DNA of 47,550 bases. Origin: an uncultured delta proteobacterium (lineage in GTDB: Bacteria; Myxococcota_A; Polyangia; Polyangiales; Polyangiaceae). The translations under genes and the position numbers were made by a program. The notes under the pieces are model-generated. The model had not been told where the DNA came from, made no database searches, and was given only the letters and a program-made list of their open reading frames with translations. The DNA lies in the NCBI GenBank assembly GCA_903870415.1, contig CAIQDA010000084.1:1-47550 (forward strand). The letters are read 5' to 3'. Within the stretch, counting starts at the first letter, position 1. Every line of letters starts with the position of its first letter. Below are positions 1,216 to 29,362 of this stretch, piece by piece.

Positions 1216-1962
1216 TTACATCGACAAGCCGCCATCCACATCAACGACGCGCCCGTTGAAGTAGTCGCATTCGAGGCAGAACTTCACCGCCTGCCAGATG
1301 TCTTCGGGCTCGCCCACGCGCCCGCACGGCACGTTCGCCACGAGCGCATCGCGGGCCTTTTGGTTCATGCCGCGCGTCATCGGCGTTTCGATCATGCCCG
1401 GCGCGACGGCGACCGCGCGAATGCCAAACGAGGCAAATTCGCGAGCCCACGTGACGACGTTTGCCGCGAGGGCCGCCTTCGCCGAAACGTAATTCGTCTG
1501 GCCGCGGTTTCCGTGGCGCGCGATGGACGAAATGCTGACGACGACGCCGGGACGCTCGCCGGCTTCGACCATGGCCGCCACCGTGTCGCGCACCATGAAG
1601 GTTGCGCCCGTGAGGTTCACGCCGATGACCGTGTTCCAGTCGGCCGTGGACATCTTCTTCACCTCGCCGGTGACCTTGTCCTTCTTCACGAGGAGCCCGT
1701 CGCGCAGAATGCCCGCGTTGTTGATGAGGCCGTTGACCCCGCCCATGGACTCCTTTGCCCAGGTGACAAAGGCGCCGATGTCGTCTTCGGACGAGACGTC
1801 GAGCTTGCGACGGTGAATGCCCGCGGGAAGCTCCGCAAGCGCCGCGTCGTTGATGTCGCCCGCCGCGACCTGGGCGCCGGCTTCGTGAAGGCGACGTGCG
1901 AAGTGCGCGCCCATGCCCTGGGCCGCGCCGGTGACGATGATCTTGAGGCTGCTGAGCTGCAT
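1216..1962 (-). CDS. SDR family oxidoreductase (FabG/PhaB-like 3-oxoacyl reductase)
   Basis: Start trimmed to MQLSSLKIIVTGAAQGMG; TGxxxGxG, NNAG, S...YxxxK (YVSAK) and C-terminal VDGGLSM. Confidence 0.93.
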   Translation of the reverse strand: MQLSSLKIIVTGAAQGMGAHFARRLHEAGAQVAAGDINDAALAELPAGIHRRKLDVSSEDDIGAFVTWAKESMGGVNGLINNAGILRDGLLVKKDKVTGEVKKMSTADWNTVIGVNLTGATFMVRDTVAAMVEAGERPGVVVSISSIARHGNRGQTNYVSAKAALAANVVTWAREFASFGIRAVAVAPGMIETPMTRGMNQKARDALVANVPCGRVGEPEDIWQAVKFCLECDYFNGRVVDVDGGLSM

Positions 1963-2089: not shown

Positions 2090-2371
2090 TCAGGCCTTGG
2101 TGGCGAACGACTGCTCGCTGCGGCGCACCATTTCGAGGGCTTGCTTGCGCCAGTTCGACGACATCTCGAGGCCCCAGCTCATGGAGTCCCGCGTGAGCTT
2201 CATCGCTTCATCCATCTGGGTCATCATCTGCTCGTGAGCCTTCTGCTCCCACGTGGCGTACTCCGCTTGCGCCTTCTCGGTGCGCGAGGCCCAATCCGTC
2301 GTGATCGTGCTGAAGTCGGGCATCATCGGGAACAGGTCGCGGACGGTCTTCTTGATGTTTTCGGTGTTCAT
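2090..2371 (-). CDS. Phasin-like PHA granule-associated protein
   Basis: MNTENIKKTVRDLFPMMPDFSTITTDWASRTEKAQAEYATWEQKAHEQMMTQMDEAMKLTRDSMSWG...; small amphipathic helical protein next to phaR. Confidence 0.7.
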   Translation of the reverse strand: MNTENIKKTVRDLFPMMPDFSTITTDWASRTEKAQAEYATWEQKAHEQMMTQMDEAMKLTRDSMSWGLEMSSNWRKQALEMVRRSEQSFATKA

Positions 2372-2540: not shown

Positions 2541-3257
2541 CTACTTCTTCTTTGCTGCGCGCGCGGAAACCTTCGCCACGGCGCGCGGCTTTGGTGCCTT
2601 CACGGGCTTCACGGCCCCGAGGAGCGCGGTCTTCAGCTCGGCGAGTTCCGCGCGAAGGCTGTCGATGTCGCTGCGTTCCGCGGAGACTTCTTTGGGCGGG
2701 CTGGTGCGGCGGCGCGGCGCCGGGGGTTCGGGCGCGTAATCGGCCTCGTACTCGGGCTCCATCACCGGCGCGCTCGGCGGAGGCGGAGGCGGCGCCGCGT
2801 TCCGCGCCTCATAAACGGGGTTCTGCGGGGGGCGCCAACCGTTCGCCTCGAAGAAGGGGCGCAGGAGCGGGTTCGCCGATGCGAATGGGCGAGAGAGCGT
2901 GGTGGCCATGCCGGTGACCGCATCGAAGGCGTTCGGTGCACGACGTGCGCTCAAGTAGATTTCCAAGGCCCACGAGACATACCGCTGAAAGAATTCCGCG
3001 AGACCGTCGTCACCGAGGCGCACGAGCTGCACGAGGAGGCCCGTGGGCAAAAGGCGGGCGCCGCCGCGCGACTCAAGAATGATTTGGGCAAACGTCGCTT
3101 GGGTCAGGTCCTCGCCGGTGACCGCGTCGAACACGCGCACGTCGGTTCCGCGCTTCACCTTGGCGGCGAGCTCGTCGAGCGTGACGTAGCGGCTCTCTTC
3201 GCCGTCGTAGAGTCGCCGGTTTGCGTACTTCTTCACGATGACGGGGGGCTTTGCCAT
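2541..3257 (-). CDS. phaR: PHA synthesis repressor / PHB accumulation regulator
   Basis: MAKPPVIVKKYANRRLYDGEESRYVTLDELAAKVKRGTDVRVFDAVTGEDLTQATFAQIILE, the characteristic PHB/PHA accumulation regulator DNA-binding domain. Confidence 0.95.
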   Translation of the reverse strand: MAKPPVIVKKYANRRLYDGEESRYVTLDELAAKVKRGTDVRVFDAVTGEDLTQATFAQIILESRGGARLLPTGLLVQLVRLGDDGLAEFFQRYVSWALEIYLSARRAPNAFDAVTGMATTLSRPFASANPLLRPFFEANGWRPPQNPVYEARNAAPPPPPPSAPVMEPEYEADYAPEPPAPRRRTSPPKEVSAERSDIDSLRAELAELKTALLGAVKPVKAPKPRAVAKVSARAAKKK

Positions 3258-3631: not shown

Positions 3632-4579
3632 ATGCGTTTCTTCTCCACTCTGACCTATCTTGCTGTCGCCGCGATCGGTGCAGGCTGTTCGTCCACCGCG
3701 AGCACCGAGGCGTCGTGCCGCACCGGAGCGGAATGCGCTTCGGGCGTGTGCCTCGCGAGTGGCACCTGCGAGCCCGTGCAGAATGCAGGCGATGGCGGGC
3801 TGACACCTGGCGACGGGTCGGCGCCCATCGTGAATGGCGACTCGGGCGCATGCGTGCCGAACGGAGACGGGCGCATCGATCGCAACGAATTTCCAGCGTC
3901 TCCGGGCCTTCGAGCCACCTACGCGTACGCTTCGGCGGTCGCGGTGAACTTTGCGGGCGTCACCGCGAACGGCGTGACGACCTGGGACTTCAAGGGCCCT
4001 TACGCGAGCGACACGACGCGCGTCGTCGATGTGCAAGCGACCGCGGGAAAGTGGTGGGCAGGCGCGTTCACGGGAGCGAGCTACGCCCTTGCGCTTGGCA
4101 GCACGTCGGACCTTCTCGGCGTCTTCGTCTTGAACGATACGGGGCTTACGCTTCGCGGCGTTGTCTCTCCGGCGGACGGCACCACCAAGACCCAACTTGC
4201 GTATGACCCCGGTGCCTCGTTCCTGCGCTTTCCCATGCGCAAGGGCGACGCGTGGTCGACGACGAGCACCATCACGGGAACGGTGCAGGGCCTGACGATC
4301 GCCTCGACCTCAGGCACGCAATACACCGAGACCTACGCCATCTCCGTCGACGCCGAGGGCTTCGTCGAGGTTCCCTTTGGACGCTTCAAGGTGCTCCGCG
4401 TTCTCACGACGCTCACGCGCAAAAATCAGTTCGGCCAGTCCATCTCGGCCATGCCCGACAAGAAGACCGTCGCCTTTGTCGCCGAGTGCTTCGGCACCGT
4501 CGCGAGCGCCACCTCGAACGACAGCGAAGCCACGCCACTCTTCTCAACCGCCGCGGAACTTCAGCGCCTCGCGCCCTGA
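3632..4579 (+). CDS. Secreted lipoprotein with EF-hand-like DGxIxxxE segment; paralog of the 7066-7896 product
   Basis: Lipobox signal MRFFSTLTYLAVAAIGAGC; CVPNGDGRIDRNEFP; C-terminal FVAECFGTVASAT...STAAELQRLAP. Confidence 0.85.
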   Translation: MRFFSTLTYLAVAAIGAGCSSTASTEASCRTGAECASGVCLASGTCEPVQNAGDGGLTPGDGSAPIVNGDSGACVPNGDGRIDRNEFPASPGLRATYAYASAVAVNFAGVTANGVTTWDFKGPYASDTTRVVDVQATAGKWWAGAFTGASYALALGSTSDLLGVFVLNDTGLTLRGVVSPADGTTKTQLAYDPGASFLRFPMRKGDAWSTTSTITGTVQGLTIASTSGTQYTETYAISVDAEGFVEVPFGRFKVLRVLTTLTRKNQFGQSISAMPDKKTVAFVAECFGTVASATSNDSEATPLFSTAAELQRLAP

Positions 4580-4594
4580 TCGAACGACCCCACG

Positions 4595-5497
4595 ATGCGC
4601 CTAGTTCCCTATGCCTTGCTTCTCGCGCTCACCTCCGGGTGCACGCTCGCGTTCCATCCCGCCACGCCCCCCGGCGCCCCAAAGGACTCCACCTTTGCGA
4701 CCGTCAATGGCGTGCGCCTGCGTATCAAGGCTGCGGGGCAGGGTGCCGGCACGCCGGTGCTCTTTCTCCACGGCTTCGCCTCGTCGCTCGAGACGTGGGA
4801 CTTCGTGCAGCCCCTCATCGCGAAGGACCGGCGCACGCTGTCGGTCGACCTGAAGGGTTTCGGTTATTCGGCGCGTCCCGCAGGCGACTATTCGCCGCCG
4901 GCGCAAGCCAAGATGCTCCTTGAGCTCCTCGATCAGCAGGGCATCGGCGACGTCATCGTGGTGGCGCATTCGTGGGGCACGTCCATCGCGCTCGCCATGG
5001 CGCTCGAGGCACCGGCTCGCGTGAAGCGCCTCGCGCTCTATGATGCTTGGGCGTACGAAGAGCAGATTCCGCCGTTCTTTCTCTGGGCGCGCACGCGTGG
5101 CGTCGGTGAGTTCCTCTTTAGTGCATTCTACAAGGAGCGGCCGTACGAGCGCATCGCGTTTGCGTTCTACGATCGCGAACGTTACGTGACCGAGCCGCTC
5201 CTCGACCTCACCGCGGCGGCGCTCGAGCGACCCGGCACCGAGGCTGCGGCCCTTGAAGCCGTGCGCGGTCAAACCTACGGCGAGTGGCAATCTCGCTACC
5301 GCAGCATCAAGGCACCGACGCTGCTTCTCTGGGGTCGCGAGGACGAGGTCACCACGCTCGGCTTCGGCGAACGGCTCGTGCGCGAACTGCCCAACGCCCG
5401 CCTCGCGGTCTACCCACGTTGCGGGCATTTTCCCATGCTCGAAGCCATCAACTCTTCCAACGCCGACCTTCAGACCTTCCTCGCGGAGGCCCCATGA
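4595..5497 (+). CDS. Alpha/beta-fold hydrolase, predicted lipoprotein
   Basis: Lipobox ALLLALTSGC; HGFASS oxyanion region, nucleophile elbow AHSWGTS, late GHFPMLE His. Stop overlaps the next start (ATGA). Confidence 0.9.
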   Translation: MRLVPYALLLALTSGCTLAFHPATPPGAPKDSTFATVNGVRLRIKAAGQGAGTPVLFLHGFASSLETWDFVQPLIAKDRRTLSVDLKGFGYSARPAGDYSPPAQAKMLLELLDQQGIGDVIVVAHSWGTSIALAMALEAPARVKRLALYDAWAYEEQIPPFFLWARTRGVGEFLFSAFYKERPYERIAFAFYDRERYVTEPLLDLTAAALERPGTEAAALEAVRGQTYGEWQSRYRSIKAPTLLLWGREDEVTTLGFGERLVRELPNARLAVYPRCGHFPMLEAINSSNADLQTFLAEAP

Positions 5498-7062
5498 ACC
5501 GCGCGCGGCACCTGACTCTCGCGCTCGCAGCACTCGCCTGTGCTCCTGCGGCAAATGCGACGGGCCTCATGGACACGGGCGACGACCTCGTGGGCCACGA
5601 CGATGCGCGCGTGGTCATTCACGGCGCGATGCGCGTGCGTGGCGAAGCCCTTGGCAACTTGGACCTCGATCGCGGCGTGCTCCCGAATGGCGCGCCGCTC
5701 TTTCCGGTCCCGCTCAGCGATCGCAAAGCCCAGTGGCTCGTTGGCGGCGACCTGCGCCTTCGGACCGACATCGCCATGTACGCGCCGGGCGGTCGAACAG
5801 CCGTCAAAATGCGCGTCGACATGCTCGACGACGTTCCCCTCGGGGACCGGCCCGTGGGGGTTCCTGCGGCGGCCACGAGCGTCATCACGACGGGCGATCG
5901 CGTGTTTCGCATCAAGCGCGCCTGGGGCGAAACGGCCACGCCTGTGGGTCTCCTCGCCGCGGGCCGCATGGGCAATGCGTGGGGCCTTGGCATGCTCGCG
6001 AACGGCGGAGACTGCGCCGACTGCGACAGCGGCGACGCGTCCGATCGCTTGGCTTTCGTCTCGCCGATCCTCGGTCATGTGGCCGCCATCGCGTACGACT
6101 TCTCCGTCGCCGGTCCGACGGCCCTTCGCAAAGACGGCGTGCGGTCGGTGGGTCTTGAGCCCTCGGCGGCGGTGCGAAGCATCACCTTTGCGCTCATGCA
6201 CTGGAGCGACGAGGCCACGCGAACGCGAAGGACGGCATTCGGTCGCAACGTCTTCGACTACGGCGCCTACGCGTCGTGGCGCACGCAAGCGAGCGACGTT
6301 CCGAGCACCTACGTGCCCTTCTCGTCGGCGCCCGCCATGAGCAGCTTGCAGGTTATTTCCCGGGGCTGGAACGCGCTCGCCCTCGACGGATGGCTGCGCC
6401 ACGAAGGTCGTCATCACCGCGTCGAATTCGAATTTGCGCACCTGCGCGCCACCATCGACGATGCGTCGCTTTTGCCGGGCGTATCGCTCGCCAGGCCCGT
6501 GCAGTCTGCACAGACAGGCATGTCCCTCGAAGCGACGCTGAGAACGCAAGACGACCAGCACGCCGTCGACTTGCAACTCGGCTACGCTTCTAGCGACGCC
6601 TCGCCGCTCTTTGGCAGCGGAACGACGTTGCGCATTCCTGCGGCAGACGGCTCAACGCAGACCATTCCCGTGCCGAACGGGGATCGCCTCGATCGCTTTT
6701 CGTTCCACCCGGATTACCGCATCGACCGCATTCTCTTTCGCGAGCTCGTGGGCCGCGTCACCGGTGCGGCGTATATTCGCCCGACCCTTCGCGCGACGCT
6801 CAGCGCGAACCACACCGGGCGCCTCGTCGCCTCCGTCGCCACCATCGCCTCCATCGCGACGAACGCGGCCAGCACGCCGGCGGGCAAGAGCTTCCTCGGC
6901 ATTGAGGTCGACCCGACCCTCGCGTGGCAAGGCACCGACGGCTTCACCGCTTCGCTCGAAGGTGCAGCATTTTTCCCGGGCGAAGCGCTGGGCAATCCCG
7001 CCGCGAAACTCGACGCCAAACCCGCGGGGCTCCTTCGCCTGCGCCTCTCTTACGCGTTCTAG
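5494..7062 (+). CDS. TIGR04551-like family protein, predicted secreted/outer-membrane
   Basis: Signal peptide MNRARHLTLALAALACAPAANA, then GLMDTGDDLV...VVIHGAMRVRGEALGNLDLDRG; aromatic/basic C-terminus LRLRLSYAF typical of a beta-barrel. Confidence 0.75.
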   Translation: MNRARHLTLALAALACAPAANATGLMDTGDDLVGHDDARVVIHGAMRVRGEALGNLDLDRGVLPNGAPLFPVPLSDRKAQWLVGGDLRLRTDIAMYAPGGRTAVKMRVDMLDDVPLGDRPVGVPAAATSVITTGDRVFRIKRAWGETATPVGLLAAGRMGNAWGLGMLANGGDCADCDSGDASDRLAFVSPILGHVAAIAYDFSVAGPTALRKDGVRSVGLEPSAAVRSITFALMHWSDEATRTRRTAFGRNVFDYGAYASWRTQASDVPSTYVPFSSAPAMSSLQVISRGWNALALDGWLRHEGRHHRVEFEFAHLRATIDDASLLPGVSLARPVQSAQTGMSLEATLRTQDDQHAVDLQLGYASSDASPLFGSGTTLRIPAADGSTQTIPVPNGDRLDRFSFHPDYRIDRILFRELVGRVTGAAYIRPTLRATLSANHTGRLVASVATIASIATNAASTPAGKSFLGIEVDPTLAWQGTDGFTASLEGAAFFPGEALGNPAAKLDAKPAGLLRLRLSYAF

Positions 7063-7065
7063 GCC

Positions 7066-7896
7066 ATGACGATGCGCGCACTCCCTCTCCTTGCTCCTCT
7101 CGCTCTCGCCGCGCTCGCGGCCTGTGGCGACAACCTCACCTATGTGAACGACGCACCAAGCGCCGCCACAGTGCTTGCCTGCGCGCCGAACCTCGACGGC
7201 GTCCTCACGGCCGACGAAGTCCCCGTGGTGCTCGACGCTCAAGCGCGTTTTCGCGTGGCCGCGGGCGCGGTTTCCGTCAACCTCGATGGCGTCGTGGGCT
7301 CCGACGGTCGCCGCCGTTTCTTCTTCGCAGGCTCGTACGCGGGCGAGAAGCTCGTGGGCATCTCCGGAAGCAAGCTTGCAAGTCGCTGGTATTCTGCAAG
7401 CTTTCCTGGAGCGGAGTTTGCGGCGCCCATCGACGTCGATGGCGCTCTTGATGGCGTGTATTCGCGCGGCACGGACGGCCTTCGGCTTCACGGCTTTGCG
7501 TCGCCGACCGAAGACCCGAGCGAAGGAAAAACCCTCATGGTTTACGACACGCCGGTGCTCGTGCTCCCGCTGCCACTTGAAGTGGGTTCGGCGTGGGTGA
7601 GTGCCGCGCGGGTCGTCGGCGCCACGCTGCATGGGCAGCCCTATGCGGGCTCCGATCGCTACGAGGGCGTCGTTGCGGGAGCTGGCGAATTGCGCCTCCC
7701 GGACCTCACCTTTGCGAGCGCCTTCGAGGTGCGAACGAAGGTGACCGCGAGCCCATCAAGCGGCATCGCGGTCGTCAAGCGGCAGGCTGGTTTCTACGCA
7801 GAATGCTTCGGCGAAGTGGCGCGAGCCACCGGCGTCGACAACGAAGAGAACGCGTCGTTCACGACGGCGGCAGAAGTGCGTCGCTTCACGCCTTGA
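7066..7896 (+). CDS. Secreted lipoprotein, paralog of the 3632-4579 product
   Basis: Lipobox ALAALAACGDN; CAPNLDGVLTADEVP; C-terminal FYAECFGEVARATGVDNEENASFTTAAEVRRFTP. Confidence 0.85.
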   Translation: MTMRALPLLAPLALAALAACGDNLTYVNDAPSAATVLACAPNLDGVLTADEVPVVLDAQARFRVAAGAVSVNLDGVVGSDGRRRFFFAGSYAGEKLVGISGSKLASRWYSASFPGAEFAAPIDVDGALDGVYSRGTDGLRLHGFASPTEDPSEGKTLMVYDTPVLVLPLPLEVGSAWVSAARVVGATLHGQPYAGSDRYEGVVAGAGELRLPDLTFASAFEVRTKVTASPSSGIAVVKRQAGFYAECFGEVARATGVDNEENASFTTAAEVRRFTP

Positions 7897-7930: not shown

Positions 7931-8263
7931 ATGGGCTGGGACGAGTTCAAGAAGGGTTTCGATGGCTGGGAAAGCTCCACGGCGAAGGTGCTTGAGCGCG
8001 CGCTGAAGAGCCCGTCGTTTGTCGGCCCGTCGGGTCGTGCGCTGTCGGCGTTGATGCGCGGTCGAGCGGCGAGCGAGAGGGCAAAAACCACGCTTTGGAG
8101 TGAGGTCGGCGTGGCGACGCGCCTCGATCAAGAGCGCACGCTGCACCTGCTCAATCGACTCGAATCGAAGATTCTCGATCTCGAAGAACGCATCGACCGG
8201 CTGAACGCCAAGCTCGATGCGCGAGATGCCCGTGATGCGCGCACAGGCGCGCCGTCCACCTGA
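7931..8263 (+). CDS. Small helical PhaE/phasin-like accessory protein
   Basis: MGWDEFKKGFDGWESSTAKVLERALKSPSFVG...LDQERTLHLLNRLESKILDLEERIDRLNAKLD; C-terminal coiled coil; same strand and block as phaC. Confidence 0.6.
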   Translation: MGWDEFKKGFDGWESSTAKVLERALKSPSFVGPSGRALSALMRGRAASERAKTTLWSEVGVATRLDQERTLHLLNRLESKILDLEERIDRLNAKLDARDARDARTGAPST

Positions 8264-8288: not shown

Positions 8289-10016
8289 ATGGTTCAAGAC
8301 GCCGATCTCACGTTCGCCCCGCGCGTTGTCTTCGACGCGCTCCCCGCTTGTGCTTCGCGCGCACGCTTCATGGTTCCCGAGGGAAAGGGCCGCTGGAGCG
8401 TTGTGACGTGGGCGGACTTTGCCGCGAGAATTCGCAGGGCTTCGTGCTTTCTGGCGGAGCGCGGGCTCAAGGCCGGCGACCGCGCATGCATCTTCGCGCC
8501 AAACTCCGTGGACTGGGGAGCTGCCGCGCTGGCGATTCAAGCGGCGGGCGGCGTGATGGTCCCGATCTATGCATCGAACACCGTCGAACAGATGGCGTAC
8601 GTGGTCGACCACTCGGACTCGGAGTTCGTCTTTGCGGGCAGTGCGCCCCTTCTCGAGCGCACCATCGAGGCCTGCGCGAGCACGCCAAAGGTGAAGCACA
8701 TCGTCTACCTCGGCCTCGAAACCGACATCGCAGCGGCAGTGAAAAAGGCCGCTTCTCGCATGCGCAGCATCGACGACGCGCTACGCCTCTTCGCCAAGGT
8801 GATTCCCTGGGAGCGCGCGCTCAGCGAGGGGCTCGTGGCCGACGAGTTGCGCCCGGAACGTTTCGAAGCGCGCATGGACGCGCTCTCGCTCGATGGCGCC
8901 TCGGTGATGCTCTACACGTCGGGGACAAGCGGTCCGCCGAAGGGTGTACCCCTCACGCATCGCAACGTGGGCACCAACGGCGTCGACTGGCTGGCCATCT
9001 ACGGTGAGGCTGTACCTGCGAACGCGGTCGATCTCCTGTGGCTTCCCATGAGCCACATCTTCGGTTTCGGCGAGCTCTGCCTCGGCAACACGCTGCGCTT
9101 CACGACGTACATGAGCGAGCCGAAGGTTCTCTACGATCACCTGAAAGAGGTGCGGCCCCAGGTGTTCATGAGTGTTCCCCAGGTGTGGGAGAAACTCGCG
9201 TCCTTCGCAGCGGGCATCGAGAATCTCGACGATCGCAAAGCCAAACTCGCGGAGATGACCGGCGGCGCGATTGCCTTTGGCCTCTCTGGAGGAGCGGGGC
9301 TGAAGCGTGAGGTCAAAGAGTTCTTCGCGACCACGGGCCTCGCCATCATGGAGGGTTACGGTCTGACCGAGTGCAGCCCGACGCTGACCCTGAACCGGCC
9401 GAAGGATTACCGATTCGATACGGTCGGAAAGGTTCTTCCGTCGGTGGAGCTGAGTCTCGCGGAGGACGGAGAAATCCTCGCGCGCGGCCCATCGGTGTTT
9501 GGCGGCTACCACAAGGACGAGGCGGCGACGCGCGAGGCATTCTCGGACGACGGCTGGTTCAAGACCGGCGACATCGGGCGCTTCACGGACGACGGGTTCC
9601 TCCAAATCGTCGATCGCAAGAAAGACATCCTCGTGACCGCGGGCGGCAAGAACGTTGCGCCGGCGAACGTCGAGCAGCTCTTCGCGTCGGACGCGCTCAT
9701 CGCGCAGGCTGTCGTGTACGGCGAGGCCAAGAAGTACCTCGTTGCGGGCTTCTGGCTCAACCCGCCCACGCCCGACGACCCTGAACAATTGCTGGGTCTC
9801 GAGGGACAAGCGCGCGTCGAAGCTGCGCGGCAGTTTGTCCAGGCGAAGGTGAACGCCGCGAACGAGCGCGTGGCGCATCACGAGACCATCAAGGCGTTTC
9901 GCGTCTTCGACAAGCCACTGACGATCGAGGGCGGCTTCCTCACGCCGACCATGAAGATTCGGCGCAAGGCCATCGTCAGTGCGTTCCGCGAAGACTTCGA
10001 GGGACTCTACACGTGA
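8289..10016 (+). CDS. Long-chain acyl-CoA synthetase / AMP-dependent ligase
   Basis: YTSGTSGPPKGVPLTH, YGLTECSP, DGWFKTGDIGRF, DRKKDILVTAGGKNVAP. Start trimmed to 8289. Confidence 0.95.
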   Translation: MVQDADLTFAPRVVFDALPACASRARFMVPEGKGRWSVVTWADFAARIRRASCFLAERGLKAGDRACIFAPNSVDWGAAALAIQAAGGVMVPIYASNTVEQMAYVVDHSDSEFVFAGSAPLLERTIEACASTPKVKHIVYLGLETDIAAAVKKAASRMRSIDDALRLFAKVIPWERALSEGLVADELRPERFEARMDALSLDGASVMLYTSGTSGPPKGVPLTHRNVGTNGVDWLAIYGEAVPANAVDLLWLPMSHIFGFGELCLGNTLRFTTYMSEPKVLYDHLKEVRPQVFMSVPQVWEKLASFAAGIENLDDRKAKLAEMTGGAIAFGLSGGAGLKREVKEFFATTGLAIMEGYGLTECSPTLTLNRPKDYRFDTVGKVLPSVELSLAEDGEILARGPSVFGGYHKDEAATREAFSDDGWFKTGDIGRFTDDGFLQIVDRKKDILVTAGGKNVAPANVEQLFASDALIAQAVVYGEAKKYLVAGFWLNPPTPDDPEQLLGLEGQARVEAARQFVQAKVNAANERVAHHETIKAFRVFDKPLTIEGGFLTPTMKIRRKAIVSAFREDFEGLYT

Positions 10017-11134
10017 GCAAGATCGAAGCTCTTTCGCGCCTCGCGCGTCGCGGTCGACCTGCCGTTGGTGTCACCCCAGCGGACGTGGTGCACCGGGAAA
10101 ACAAGCTGTCGCTTCTTCGGTACAAAGCGCGGCCCGAAGGCTTGGCATTTCGCACGCCGACTGTCCTCGTGCCGTCGCTCATCAACCGGCACTACGTGCT
10201 CGACTTGATGCCCGGTAAGAGCCTTGTCGAGTGGCTCGTCGCGCGCGGCCACGATGTATACTGCATCGATTGGGGCTCGCCGGGCCCGGAGGATCGCTGG
10301 ATCGATCTCGACACCATTTTCGACCGGTACGTGCACCACGCGGTGCGCGCGGCGAAGGCGGTGTCCGGGTCGGAGCAAGTGCACACGCTCGGGTACTGCA
10401 TGGGCGGCCTCATGACGCTCGTGCACGCGTCGCTGCACCCGGACGATGTGGCCACGACGACGACCCTCGCCACGCCGGTTCGCTTCAGCGGTGACGACGG
10501 TTCGCTGCTTTCGGCCTGGACGAGTTCGCCGACGTTTGACGTGCACGCGCTCGTGGAGGCGACCGGTGTCGTGCCCTGGCAGCTCCTTCAATCGGCGTTC
10601 CAAATGCTGCGCCCGACGATGAACCTGTCGAAGGCCGTTCACTTCATCGATCGCATCGAAGACGACCCGTACGTCGACGGGTTTCTTGCGATGGAGACCT
10701 GGGGCAACGACAACGTGGGGCTGCCCGGGGCCTTTTACGAACAGTACCTCCGCGACTTCTATCGCGGCGACAAGCTTGCGCGCGGCGAGCTCGTCGTGAG
10801 CGGCCGGCGCGTCGACCTCACGGCGTTGCGAATGCCGCTTCATTGCGTGAGCTTTGCACACGATTCCATCGTCCCTGCGGAGAGCGCGCAAGAGCTCATG
10901 GCGATCGCGGGTTCCATCGACAAAGTCGCGACGAAACTCGGGGGCGGACACGTTGGCGCTGTCGTGGCGAAGTCCGCGTCCGAGCGCCTGTGGCCGAAGC
11001 TTGCGTCGTTTTGGGAAGCTCGTGACACGCCCGCCGAGCGCGACGTCGACGACAACGCCGCAGGCCGTGAGCCCGTTGCGTCGCTCGCGCCCGAAAGCCG
11101 TGCGACAAAGGCGCGGACGAGGGCGCGCCGCTGA
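10013..11134 (+). CDS. phaC: Class III poly(3-hydroxyalkanoate) synthase subunit PhaC
   Basis: Lipase-box-like GYCMGG with Cys nucleophile, DWGSPGPEDRW, ~370 aa; GTG start overlaps the ligase stop (GTGA). Confidence 0.9.
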   Translation: MSKIEALSRLARRGRPAVGVTPADVVHRENKLSLLRYKARPEGLAFRTPTVLVPSLINRHYVLDLMPGKSLVEWLVARGHDVYCIDWGSPGPEDRWIDLDTIFDRYVHHAVRAAKAVSGSEQVHTLGYCMGGLMTLVHASLHPDDVATTTTLATPVRFSGDDGSLLSAWTSSPTFDVHALVEATGVVPWQLLQSAFQMLRPTMNLSKAVHFIDRIEDDPYVDGFLAMETWGNDNVGLPGAFYEQYLRDFYRGDKLARGELVVSGRRVDLTALRMPLHCVSFAHDSIVPAESAQELMAIAGSIDKVATKLGGGHVGAVVAKSASERLWPKLASFWEARDTPAERDVDDNAAGREPVASLAPESRATKARTRARR

Positions 11135-25798: not shown

Positions 25799-26968
25799 TC
25801 AGCCCGCAGATTCGAGAAGACCCGCCGCGCCCATGCCGCCACCAATGCACATGGTGACGATGGCGTAGCGGCCGTTGCGGCGACGGAGTTCGTGAAGCGC
25901 CGTGGCGACGAGCTTTGCGCCCGAGCACCCAAGAGGGTGACCGAGCGAGATGGCGCCGCCGTTGACGTTGAGGCGATCCATGGGCAGCCCGAGGGTGCGC
26001 TGCACGTAGACCGCTTGGCTCGCAAACGCCTCGTTGACCTCGAAGAGGTCGATGTCCGCGACCGTGAGGCCGCTCTTGGCGAGGAGCTTCTGGACCGCGG
26101 GAATGGGGCCGATGCCCATGATGGCCGGGTCGACACCAACGGTGGCAAACGCCCGGAAGTAGCCGAGGGGCTTGGCGCCGATTTGATCGGCTTTGGCCTT
26201 CGACGTGACGATCATGGCGGCGGCGCCGTCGCTGAGTGGCGAGGCGTTGCCTGCGGTGACCGAACCCGTTGCGGAGAACACGGGCTTGAGACCCGCGAGG
26301 CTCTCCGCCGTGGTTTCGGGGCGCACGAGTTCGTCGTCCGTGAACGCATACGTCGTACGCTCATGGCCTACGAACTTAACCGCCTGCACCGCGACGAGCT
26401 CGCTCGCGAAACGGCCTGCAGCCTTGGCCGCTGCCGCTTTCTGATGGCTCGATGCGGCGAACGCGTCTTGATCGGCGCGCGCGATTTCGAAGCGCCTCGC
26501 GACGTTCTCGGCGGTGATGCCCATGGGCGTGTACACGGAGGCGACGCGCTTCATGGCTTCCGGAGAAGCGCTGAGCTTGTTGCCCGTCATCGGCACCATG
26601 GACATCGATTCGACGCCGCCGGCGACGACCATGTCGTTGGCTCCGGAGGCGATGGCACCCGCCGCGATGGCAAGCGATTGAAGGCCGCTTGAGCAGAAGC
26701 GGTTGATGGTGATGGCGCTCGTCGTCTCCGGAAGTCCGCCAAGAAGGCCGGCCACGCGGGCGATGTTGAGGCCTTGTTCGCCCTCGGGCATGGCGCAGCC
26801 GAGGATGACGTCCTCGATGTCTGCGGGGTTAACGCCCGGGTTGCGCGCCATGAGAGCCGCGATGACTTCGCCTGCGAGGTCGTCGGGGCGCTTCTGCGCA
26901 AGGGAGCCCTTGATGGCGCGGCCGACGGCGGATCGAACGGCGTCGAGAATGACAATGTCGTGGGTCAT
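25799..26968 (-). CDS. fadA: Acetyl-CoA acyltransferase (thiolase)
   Basis: NRFCSSGLQS (active Cys), NGGAISLGHPLGCSGAK, CIGGGMGAAGLLE. Confidence 0.95.
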   Translation of the reverse strand: MTHDIVILDAVRSAVGRAIKGSLAQKRPDDLAGEVIAALMARNPGVNPADIEDVILGCAMPEGEQGLNIARVAGLLGGLPETTSAITINRFCSSGLQSLAIAAGAIASGANDMVVAGGVESMSMVPMTGNKLSASPEAMKRVASVYTPMGITAENVARRFEIARADQDAFAASSHQKAAAAKAAGRFASELVAVQAVKFVGHERTTYAFTDDELVRPETTAESLAGLKPVFSATGSVTAGNASPLSDGAAAMIVTSKAKADQIGAKPLGYFRAFATVGVDPAIMGIGPIPAVQKLLAKSGLTVADIDLFEVNEAFASQAVYVQRTLGLPMDRLNVNGGAISLGHPLGCSGAKLVATALHELRRRNGRYAIVTMCIGGGMGAAGLLESAG

Positions 26969-26992
26969 GTGTTTCTCCGTTTGGCCGCGCCG

Positions 26993-29362
26993 TTAGTTGC
27001 GAAGGGGCTTGTTGTTCATGAGCATGTACTGGATGCGCTCTTGCGTCTTCGCTTCGCCGCAAAGGCTGAGGAAGGCCTCCGCTTCGAGCTCGAGCATCTC
27101 GCTCTCGGTGACTTCGTGTGCCGCGCCGCTCGCGCCGCCGCAAAGGACGTGTGCAAGCTTCTTGGCGATGAGACCGTCGTGCGCGGAGGCTTGGCCGCCG
27201 GCAACGAGCGTGTCGACCATCATCTCGAGGGTCGCGATTCCGGACTCGCCCGGGAGCACGTACGAGCGCGCTGCGGGGGCGTGGTAACCGCTTTCGGCCA
27301 TGCCGATGACCTTGTTCTTCGCCTCCGTAAGGATGCGTGCCTTGTCGAAGGAGACGCCGTCCGAATTGCGGAAGTAGCCAAAGGCTTTTCCTTCGTCGGC
27401 ACTCGTGGCGACCTTCACCATCGCGATGTTCTTGAACGTGTTCGCGACGAACTCGAAGGTGTTGATCGTGACGCCCTCGGGGACTGATTCGAGGGAGCGC
27501 CACAGCATGTTCATCGTGCCTGCGCCGCCGGGGATGAGACCGACGCCGACCTCGACGAGACCCGAGTAAGTCTCCGCCGCCGCTTGCACGCCGTCGCATG
27601 CGAAGCAGAGTTCGAGACCGCCGCCGAGGGTCATGCCGTAAGGCGCCGCGACCACGGGAACCTTCGCGTATTTCAGACGCTGGGTTGCGGCTTGGTAGCC
27701 GTGCACCATCGAGCGAATTTGATCCCACTGACCTTGCGACGAGGCCATCGCCACGAGGAGCAGGTTCGCGCCGACGCAGAAGTGATCGCCTTCGTTCGCA
27801 ATGACGATGCCGCGGAAGTCTCGCTCCGCGCGCTCAGCTGCGAGCGAGAGGAAGTTGATGACGTCCGGGTCGATGCTGTTCGCCTTCGTCTTGAAGGTGA
27901 CGCCCAGGATGCCGTCGCCGAGATCCCATGCTTCAGCGCCGTCGTTCCGGATGACCGGTGCGCCGCCGCGACGAAGCTCCGGGAGCGTGGCTTCACGAGG
28001 GTCGACGACGCGCGCAACGTACTTGCCGCTCGGGAGATCGAAGATCTCTTTGCCCTTGTAGAATGCATCCGCACCGGAGTCGTACATGCGCTTCACGGTG
28101 TCCGGAAGCGCGATGCCGTCCTTCTGCATGCGGTCGTAGGTCGCGCGGAAACCGAGCGCGTCCCACAGTTCGAAAGGACCGAGTTCCCAGTTGTAACCCC
28201 AGCGCATGGCGTCGTCGATCGCGACCACATTGCCAGCAATTTCAGGGATGCGGCGCGCCGAGTAGGCCATGGAACGCGAGGCGATCTTCCACGCGAACGT
28301 GCCCGCAACGCCTTCGTCGGCCATGAGCTTACGCACGCGCTCGCTTGGGTCTTCGACCTTGCCGAGCTTCTTGCACGTGGCCTTGATGGCTTCGTCGCCG
28401 CCCTTGGCGCGGTACTCGAGCGTGTAGGGGTCGAACGTGGCGACCTCTTTGCCCGCCTTCTTGTAGAATCCACCCTTCGTCTTGTCGCCGAGGATCTTCT
28501 TTTCGATCATCGTCGCCATGAAGGACGGAAGCTTGAAGACCTCACGCTCTTCGTCGGTCGTGAGCGAGTCCCAGCAGTTCTGTGCGACGTGCGCGAAGGT
28601 GTCGAGACCGACGAGGTCGCCCGTGCGGAAGCTTGCGCTCTTCGGGTGAGCCATTGGCGCGCCGGTGATCGCGTCCACGTCTTCAGGCGTGAGCTTGTGC
28701 TCGAGCATGAGGTGAATCGTCGACATCATGGCGTGAACGCCGATGCGGTTGCCGATGAAGTTCGGCGTGTCGTTGCCGCGGACGATGCCCTTGCCGAGCT
28801 CGTTTTTTCCGAAGCGCGCGATGGCGTCGTAGACCTTTGGGTCCGTGTCCGGGCCCGCCACAAGCTCAAGGAGCTTCATGTAGCGAACCGGGTTGAAGAA
28901 GTGCATCACGAGGAAGTTCTTCTTGAAGTTCTCCGTGCGTCCTTCGACCATCGTCTCGATGCGGAGGCCCGAGGTGTTCGACGCCACGACGGCATGCGCC
29001 GGGAGCACCGCTTCGAGCTTCGCGAAGAGAGCCTGCTTCGGCTCAAGCTTCTCGATGATGGCCTCGACGACGAGGTCGCAGTCCTTGAGCAGGTGCAGGT
29101 CGTCTTCGATGTTGCCCACGGTCACGAGCTTGGCGCGCGACTTGTGGAAGAAGGCGGCGGGGCGTGCCTTGACGGCCTTCTCGAGGCCTCCGGAGGCCCA
29201 GCTGTTGCGTGCGGCGCGGTCGTTCTTTTGCGCGTCGGTGAGGTTGGGGGGAACCACGTCGAGTAGGACGACGGGTATGCCGGCGTTCGCCATGTGGGCA
29301 GCGATGCCGCTTCCCATGACGCCCGCTCCAATGACTCCGACGCGTGCAATCGGCTTGTCCAT
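26993..29362 (-). CDS. 3-hydroxyacyl-CoA dehydrogenase / enoyl-CoA hydratase fusion (FadN-type domain order)
   Basis: N-terminal IARVGVIGAGVMGSGIAAHMANAG (HCDH), C-terminal crotonase segment APYGMTLGGGLELCFACDGVQA; 789 aa. Confidence 0.95.
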   Translation of the reverse strand: MDKPIARVGVIGAGVMGSGIAAHMANAGIPVVLLDVVPPNLTDAQKNDRAARNSWASGGLEKAVKARPAAFFHKSRAKLVTVGNIEDDLHLLKDCDLVVEAIIEKLEPKQALFAKLEAVLPAHAVVASNTSGLRIETMVEGRTENFKKNFLVMHFFNPVRYMKLLELVAGPDTDPKVYDAIARFGKNELGKGIVRGNDTPNFIGNRIGVHAMMSTIHLMLEHKLTPEDVDAITGAPMAHPKSASFRTGDLVGLDTFAHVAQNCWDSLTTDEEREVFKLPSFMATMIEKKILGDKTKGGFYKKAGKEVATFDPYTLEYRAKGGDEAIKATCKKLGKVEDPSERVRKLMADEGVAGTFAWKIASRSMAYSARRIPEIAGNVVAIDDAMRWGYNWELGPFELWDALGFRATYDRMQKDGIALPDTVKRMYDSGADAFYKGKEIFDLPSGKYVARVVDPREATLPELRRGGAPVIRNDGAEAWDLGDGILGVTFKTKANSIDPDVINFLSLAAERAERDFRGIVIANEGDHFCVGANLLLVAMASSQGQWDQIRSMVHGYQAATQRLKYAKVPVVAAPYGMTLGGGLELCFACDGVQAAAETYSGLVEVGVGLIPGGAGTMNMLWRSLESVPEGVTINTFEFVANTFKNIAMVKVATSADEGKAFGYFRNSDGVSFDKARILTEAKNKVIGMAESGYHAPAARSYVLPGESGIATLEMMVDTLVAGGQASAHDGLIAKKLAHVLCGGASGAAHEVTESEMLELEAEAFLSLCGEAKTQERIQYMLMNNKPLRN

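Follow-up and report, generated by a model that had tools for sequence, protein, structure and literature searches.

A conserved lipoprotein, hydrolase, and β-barrel system linked to PHA genes in Myxococcota, with a proposed role in the uptake of ester-derived acids

Four neighboring genes, LP1-HYD-BAR-LP2, which encode two predicted lipoproteins, a lipoprotein hydrolase, and a predicted outer-membrane β-barrel, almost certainly constitute a conserved system linked to PHA genes. We think it somewhat probable that they form a hydrolysis-and-uptake system that supplies a dedicated CoA ligase and PHA synthase with (hydroxy)acids, for which extracellular PHA is the likeliest source. In the stretch of DNA that we analyzed (47,550 nucleotides from an uncultured delta proteobacterium; hereafter, the window), these genes are four open frames, all on the forward strand, and their setting reads PhaR, then LP1-HYD-BAR-LP2-short PhaE-CoA ligase-PhaC, as follows:

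1216..1962, reverse strand: SDR, a 3-ketoacyl/acetoacetyl-CoA reductase-like (FabG/PhaB-like) protein
2090..2371, reverse strand: phasin-like small protein, 93 aa; kept in the divergent PHA module; no Pfam match
2541..3257, reverse strand: PhaR, PHA synthesis repressor; divergent from LP1
3632..4579, forward strand: LP1, predicted lipoprotein, 315 aa; lipobox-like Cys19, Cys-rich N-terminus, CVPNGDG...E loop
4595..5497, forward strand: HYD, lipoprotein α/β hydrolase, 300 aa; PF00561; Ser126-Asp250-His278 triad
5494..7062, forward strand: BAR, TIGR04551-like predicted outer-membrane β-barrel, 522 aa; signal peptide; 18-stranded model; C-terminal F
7066..7896, forward strand: LP2, paralogous lipoprotein, 276 aa; LAAC lipobox; alternative ATG at 7072
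7931..8263, forward strand: short PhaE-like PHA synthase subunit, 110 aa
8289..10016, forward strand: acyl-CoA ligase, FadD11-like; frame open from 8217, the ATG at 8289 being the more likely start
10013..11134, forward strand: PhaC, class III-like PHA synthase; 4-base overlap with the ligase

The original prediction, made from the letters of the window, had placed the four genes within a PHA locus and had noted an ATGA overlap between the hydrolase and the barrel-like protein. The overlap is present, spanning four bases (5494-5497), and the placement is correct in a setting that is richer than described, with PhaR, the phasin-like protein, the reductase, the PhaE-like subunit, the ligase, and PhaC. 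Thiolase-like and 3-hydroxyacyl-CoA dehydrogenase-like genes, seen by their N-termini only, lie on the reverse strand at 25799-29362, ∼15 kb from the PHA genes.

We drew gene maps with a simple in-house gene caller for three sets of fetched loci (40, 80, and 60) and merged them into 105 distinct Myxococcota loci. HYD lies directly ahead of BAR in 92 of these, is fused to it in nine, and is absent from four, in which the contig itself begins at or close to BAR; in 92, BAR has LP1 and LP2 on its two sides. The same loci contain PhaC (88 loci), a PhaE-like gene (83), the ligase (81), and PhaR (78). No nearby PhaC was called in 17 loci and no ligase in 24, many being clipped by contig ends; among those inspected, L128 and L145 have enough flank, yet carry none of the PHA genes. 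The order is altered in some lineages but the linkage is kept, with W9-ligase-PhaC divergent, and at L087, L088, L127, and L153, PhaC directly precedes LP1 with short spacing or an overlap. Among 97 relatives, LP homologs occur in 41 (a count that drops one marginal hit, in G015, with an E value of 8e-4), nearly always paired and with strong BAR orthologs in the same genomes. LP and PhaE-like genes are both present in 39 of the 97 and both missing from 53 (Fisher p = 4e-21, phylogeny ignored), with five discordant genomes (PhaE-like only in G071, G081, and G086; LP only in G016 and G017); in many genomes from within the same family, neither gene is present. Sampling more widely, we found the LP family in 78/241 genomes of the class and 35/189 of the phylum, almost always as two copies ∼3.4 kb apart. 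Eighty BAR loci came back when the GTDB species genomes were scanned, those whose record names a group being Myxococcota or Deltaproteobacteria; about the first 50 of them include the cassette, and most of the weaker matches are other TIGR04551 paralogs. Co-occurrence of the four families, which the original prediction had named as its check, is thus the rule, since they are almost always found together as a block, both in the 105 loci and in those of the 97 relatives that carry them. A chance embedding of exported genes in a PHA locus is ruled out by this conservation across 105 loci.

LP1 and LP2, previously read as a paralogous pair bracketing HYD and BAR, are indeed related (31% identity over 250 residues, E = 3e-28), and they are the only LP family members in the window's genome. 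The motifs noted as common to both are real, as the CxPNxDG...E loop and the ECFG cysteine show no or almost no variation across orthologs. In a tree of the family, LP1 and LP2 form two groups parted by one branch (SH-aLRT 98), which argues for a single old duplication that was kept everywhere; the pair split a single time, ahead of the radiation. The LPs keep two cysteines beyond the lipobox, as well as a D-G...E loop like a degenerate EF-hand, and these sequence features suggest (i) a putative disulfide and (ii) putative calcium binding, respectively. A family was sought by sequence, and nothing in Pfam or NCBIfam scored above cut-off for either protein. The LP2 model is confident (pLDDT 94.1), and its fold matches solved structures weakly, the best being a YmcC/GfcB-like lipoprotein (prob 0.91, E = 0.07). 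At two loci, three tandem LP domains in one protein replace LP1 (L216:10945-13623 and L221:7411-10056; family f49), and at two others, L077 (G061) and L096 (G094), an additional LP1-type lipoprotein and a sodium/solute symporter (SSS) are inserted ahead of the cassette.

Export signals, which had been proposed for all four proteins, were called by a simple in-house script rather than by SignalP, and they are borne out in each, with a canonical lipobox in LP2 (LAAC) and relaxed ones in LP1 (GAGC) and HYD (TSGC). Lipobox-like motifs were called in 32/36 LP1, 34/36 LP2, and 35/38 HYD orthologs, and a signal peptide in 35/37 BAR orthologs. The hydrolase therefore stands as an exported lipoprotein, and the cytosolic alternative failed when checked, because a signal peptide and a lipobox-like Cys are found in nearly all orthologs.

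HYD matches the α/β hydrolase family PF00561 at 114.5 bits (cut-off, 25.8), and its Ser126-Asp250-His278 triad is invariant among 32 orthologs. Its best full-length structural match is a meta-cleavage-product (MCP) hydrolase, with PHB depolymerases scoring too, and it falls under the curated scores for PHA depolymerases and oligomer hydrolases (65.6 versus 300 bits for NF050089; 48.5 versus 250.6 bits for TIGR02240). At the nine fusion loci, Kofleriaceae among them (L129, L136, L141, L142, L144, L194, L202, L203, and L204), HYD and BAR occupy a single open frame, and the five inspected in full run from a lipobox through the hydrolase and a low-complexity linker to a barrel without its own signal peptide.

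BAR, originally described as a TIGR04551-like, β-barrel-like protein, fits that description on both counts: it matches TIGR04551 over profile positions 3-519 of 519 (267.6 bits, E = 2.4e-79; the curated cut-off is 300 bits), and it is modeled as an 18-stranded barrel (pLDDT 90.7). With a signal peptide, a closed barrel in the model, and a C-terminal aromatic residue (F in 26/32 and Y in 4/32 orthologs), BAR is predicted to reside in the outer membrane. Its nearest solved structure is the alginate exporter AlgE (Foldseek E = 1.6e-14, TM 0.53/0.62), and its score against the Pfam Alginate_exp family (PF13372) is 12.5 bits, under the gathering score of 25.2. The polar face, presumed to line the lumen on the basis of strand alternation, has a consensus of 20 Arg, 2 Lys, 7 Asp, and 10 Glu, of which R47, R49, D86, R88, R90, D92, R107, R158, R185, R263, R290, and D298 are invariant. 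Such an Arg/Asp-lined lumen would suit a polar solute, likely an anionic one. BAR has no Pfam match to FadL (PF03349), and a role as FadL substitute is ruled out, since FadL is present in 84 of the 97 genomes irrespective of the LP-HYD-BAR system.

In the PHA-synthesis half of the locus, the 110-aa protein of the window has no match to PHA_synth_III_E (PF09712); 22 of 32 members of its family do match (best, 6.7e-8), which identifies it as a short PhaE-like subunit. PhaC scores under the curated class III value near full length (TIGR01836; 266.1 versus 365.3 bits), and it has both an intact Cys-Asp-His triad and a PhaE-like partner, as expected of class III; Cys129, Asp284, and His313 are kept in 26/26 ligase-adjacent orthologs. 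At L086, L087, and L088, from three relatives, the PhaC homolog next to and upstream of LP1 has its catalytic Cys replaced by Ser (GYSIAG), and a normal PhaC is found elsewhere in the locus.

Evidence on the direction of transport comes from genes recruited to the locus. Uptake-type inner-membrane symporters of unrelated families occupy varied positions in 26 of the 105 loci, namely (i) anion-symporter-type MFS proteins in nine loci, upstream of LP1 where mapped, (ii) sialate/aromatic-acid-type and galactonate-type MFS proteins in six, and (iii) PanF-like SSS proteins in 11. None was found at 26 control loci around other TIGR04551 paralogs (0/26), a comparison in which related genomes are non-independent and the control is somewhat biased, because some symporters were classified singly and the rest by HMMs built from those locus members. 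Genomes with an SSS gene in the locus hold only one to four SSS genes, and the locus copy is the sole one in G105, G143, G222, and G160. At L120:6556-9027, the SSS frame continues without a stop into LP1, including the signal peptide and lipobox of the latter. An extracellular short-chain PHA depolymerase (NF050058, 240-308 bits; cut-off, 150) is encoded in or near three loci (L069, L074, and L092), and another lies near the PhaC locus of a relative that lacks the cassette (L242). Further, the PF10503 esterase family occurs in 14/44 genomes that have the system and in 2/53 that lack it (p = 2e-4, at a cut of E <1e-20 that was picked after viewing the match list). Taken together, the locus symporters, the extracellular depolymerases, and the PF10503 enrichment favor import of organic acids from ester hydrolysis; on this gene content, the system likely imports, with uptake coupled to PHA synthesis, and a PHA-derived substrate is favored. 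The full chain is not visible in the window's organism, because its genome has no PF10503 esterase at E 1e-10 and no SSS gene, and its locus has no symporter gene; this organism may draw on products made by other cells, or on a different ester.

The envelope system dedicated to a polymer or an ester that the original prediction had suggested is supported by the PHA synthase, PhaE-like subunit, and ligase in the same unit, and the recruited uptake symporters and extracellular PHA depolymerases sharpen that proposal to import. In the scheme that we propose, LP1, HYD, BAR, and LP2 would constitute an envelope half, and the short PhaE, the CoA ligase, and the PHA synthase a cytoplasmic half. At the outer membrane or just inside it, lipid-anchored HYD would cleave esters or oligomers, which most likely stem from extracellular short-chain PHA, and the resulting (hydroxy)acid anions would cross through the 18-stranded, charged, Arg-rich lumen of BAR, with the LP1/LP2 heteropair acting as capture or accessory lipoproteins. 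In many relatives, a locus-encoded H+- or Na+-coupled organic-acid symporter would then move the acids over the inner membrane. The CoA ligase would activate the imported (hydroxy)acids, PhaC and the short PhaE would polymerize them into storage PHA, and PhaR would presumably regulate. Here, we infer the import direction, the substrate, the roles of the lipoproteins, and the surface versus periplasmic face of the system. In its more specific form, as a dedicated polyester utilization locus that takes up PHA hydrolysis products, for example those of decaying cells or prey, and with the co-encoded ligase and synthase turns them directly into PHA of the cell itself, the proposal is one that we advance tentatively, as a real possibility short of an even chance.

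The same import architecture might instead serve other esters (prey lipids, wax or short-chain esters, or aromatic esters), with the freed acids activated and stored as PHA. Several features speak for such substrates, in that HYD is as similar to MCP hydrolases and general esterases as to PHA depolymerases, the ligase is FadD11-like, the MFS partners are similar to symporters of aromatic acids, sialate, and galactonate, and PF10503 is missing from the window's genome. We nevertheless judge this reading unlikely, given the extracellular scl-PHA depolymerases in or near several loci, a polar, charged BAR lumen that would be ill-suited to long-chain fatty acids, and the presence of FadL with or without the system, so that BAR is no replacement for it. 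The likeness of BAR to an alginate exporter, and the operon that it shares with a polymerase, could also be taken to mean export, whereby an AlgE-like BAR would secrete PHA oligomers or a polyester-linked polymer, with HYD trimming and the lipoproteins serving as scaffold; this is improbable, however, because neither an inner-membrane polymer exporter nor a periplasmic conduit was seen in the locus maps, the inner-membrane partners that recur are symporters of the uptake type, and a CoA ligase together with extracellular depolymerases is more in keeping with catabolic uptake. Finally, the adjoining PhaR and the precedent of Pseudomonas putida OprL, an outer-membrane lipoprotein that is reportedly a granule-associated phasin (PMC11103573), would accord with granule or envelope maintenance, in which the lipoproteins and barrel couple the envelope, in its structure or under stress, to PHA metabolism and transport no nutrient, but that account is very improbable, as it offers no explanation for an intact esterase, an open and charged barrel, the symporters, or the depolymerases.

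The proposed uptake system invites comparison with several known ones. In SusCD-type polysaccharide utilization loci, surface lipoproteins, an outer-membrane channel, a lipoprotein hydrolase, and an inner-membrane transporter are encoded in a single locus. The present system follows the same locus logic, whereas neither a TonB-dependent barrel nor a homolog of SusD was observed in it, the protein families differ, and the chemistry would be that of esters or polyesters, with the product going to a polymerase. FadL-FadD vectorial acylation similarly couples an outer-membrane channel to a cytoplasmic acyl-CoA ligase; however, BAR models as an AlgE/OprD-like barrel with a charged lumen and no PF03349 match, and the locus further encodes a lipoprotein hydrolase, two paired lipoproteins, and a PHA synthase, often together with a symporter of the inner membrane. 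AlgE shares 18 strands and a charged lumen with BAR, but the two are 10% identical, the locus has no alginate genes, and the proposed direction is opposite. The extracellular PHB depolymerase/3HB-oligomer hydrolase pathway likewise combines extracytoplasmic ester hydrolysis with conversion of the products to hydroxyacyl-CoA, and differs in that HYD is a lipoprotein from another α/β-hydrolase branch; no uptake step for that pathway was identified in the literature searched.

In Burkholderia vietnamiensis, a 2026 study on how mcl-PHA is degraded outside the cell turned up no gene for uptake, and its authors put forward passive diffusion (PMC13101487); the predator Bdellovibrio degrades the PHA of its prey (PMC4834554). 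In a survey of Myxococcota bins, most are reported to have PHA genes, and the passages of it that were consulted mention no system of this kind (PMC11821767); we found no description of the LP1-HYD-BAR-LP2 system, and no paper on the TIGR04551-like family, in the literature searched. The locus supplies concrete candidates (barrel, lipoprotein pair, lipoprotein hydrolase, and symporters) for the crossing of the outer membrane by PHA products, across a large part of a phylum that is known for its predators and scavengers, and the system may bear on the turnover of biodegradable plastics. It also gives genomic context to the TIGR04551-like family. Other TIGR04551 paralogs occur in almost every genome searched among the 97 relatives, with unrelated neighbors at the few loci inspected, and were uninformative as a functional clue (at L169 and L180, the neighbors are lysA/dap-type amino-acid genes). 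BAR, a full-length homolog of the TIGR04551 family, differs from these same-genome paralogs in forming a distinct orthologous group tied to LP1, HYD, and LP2.
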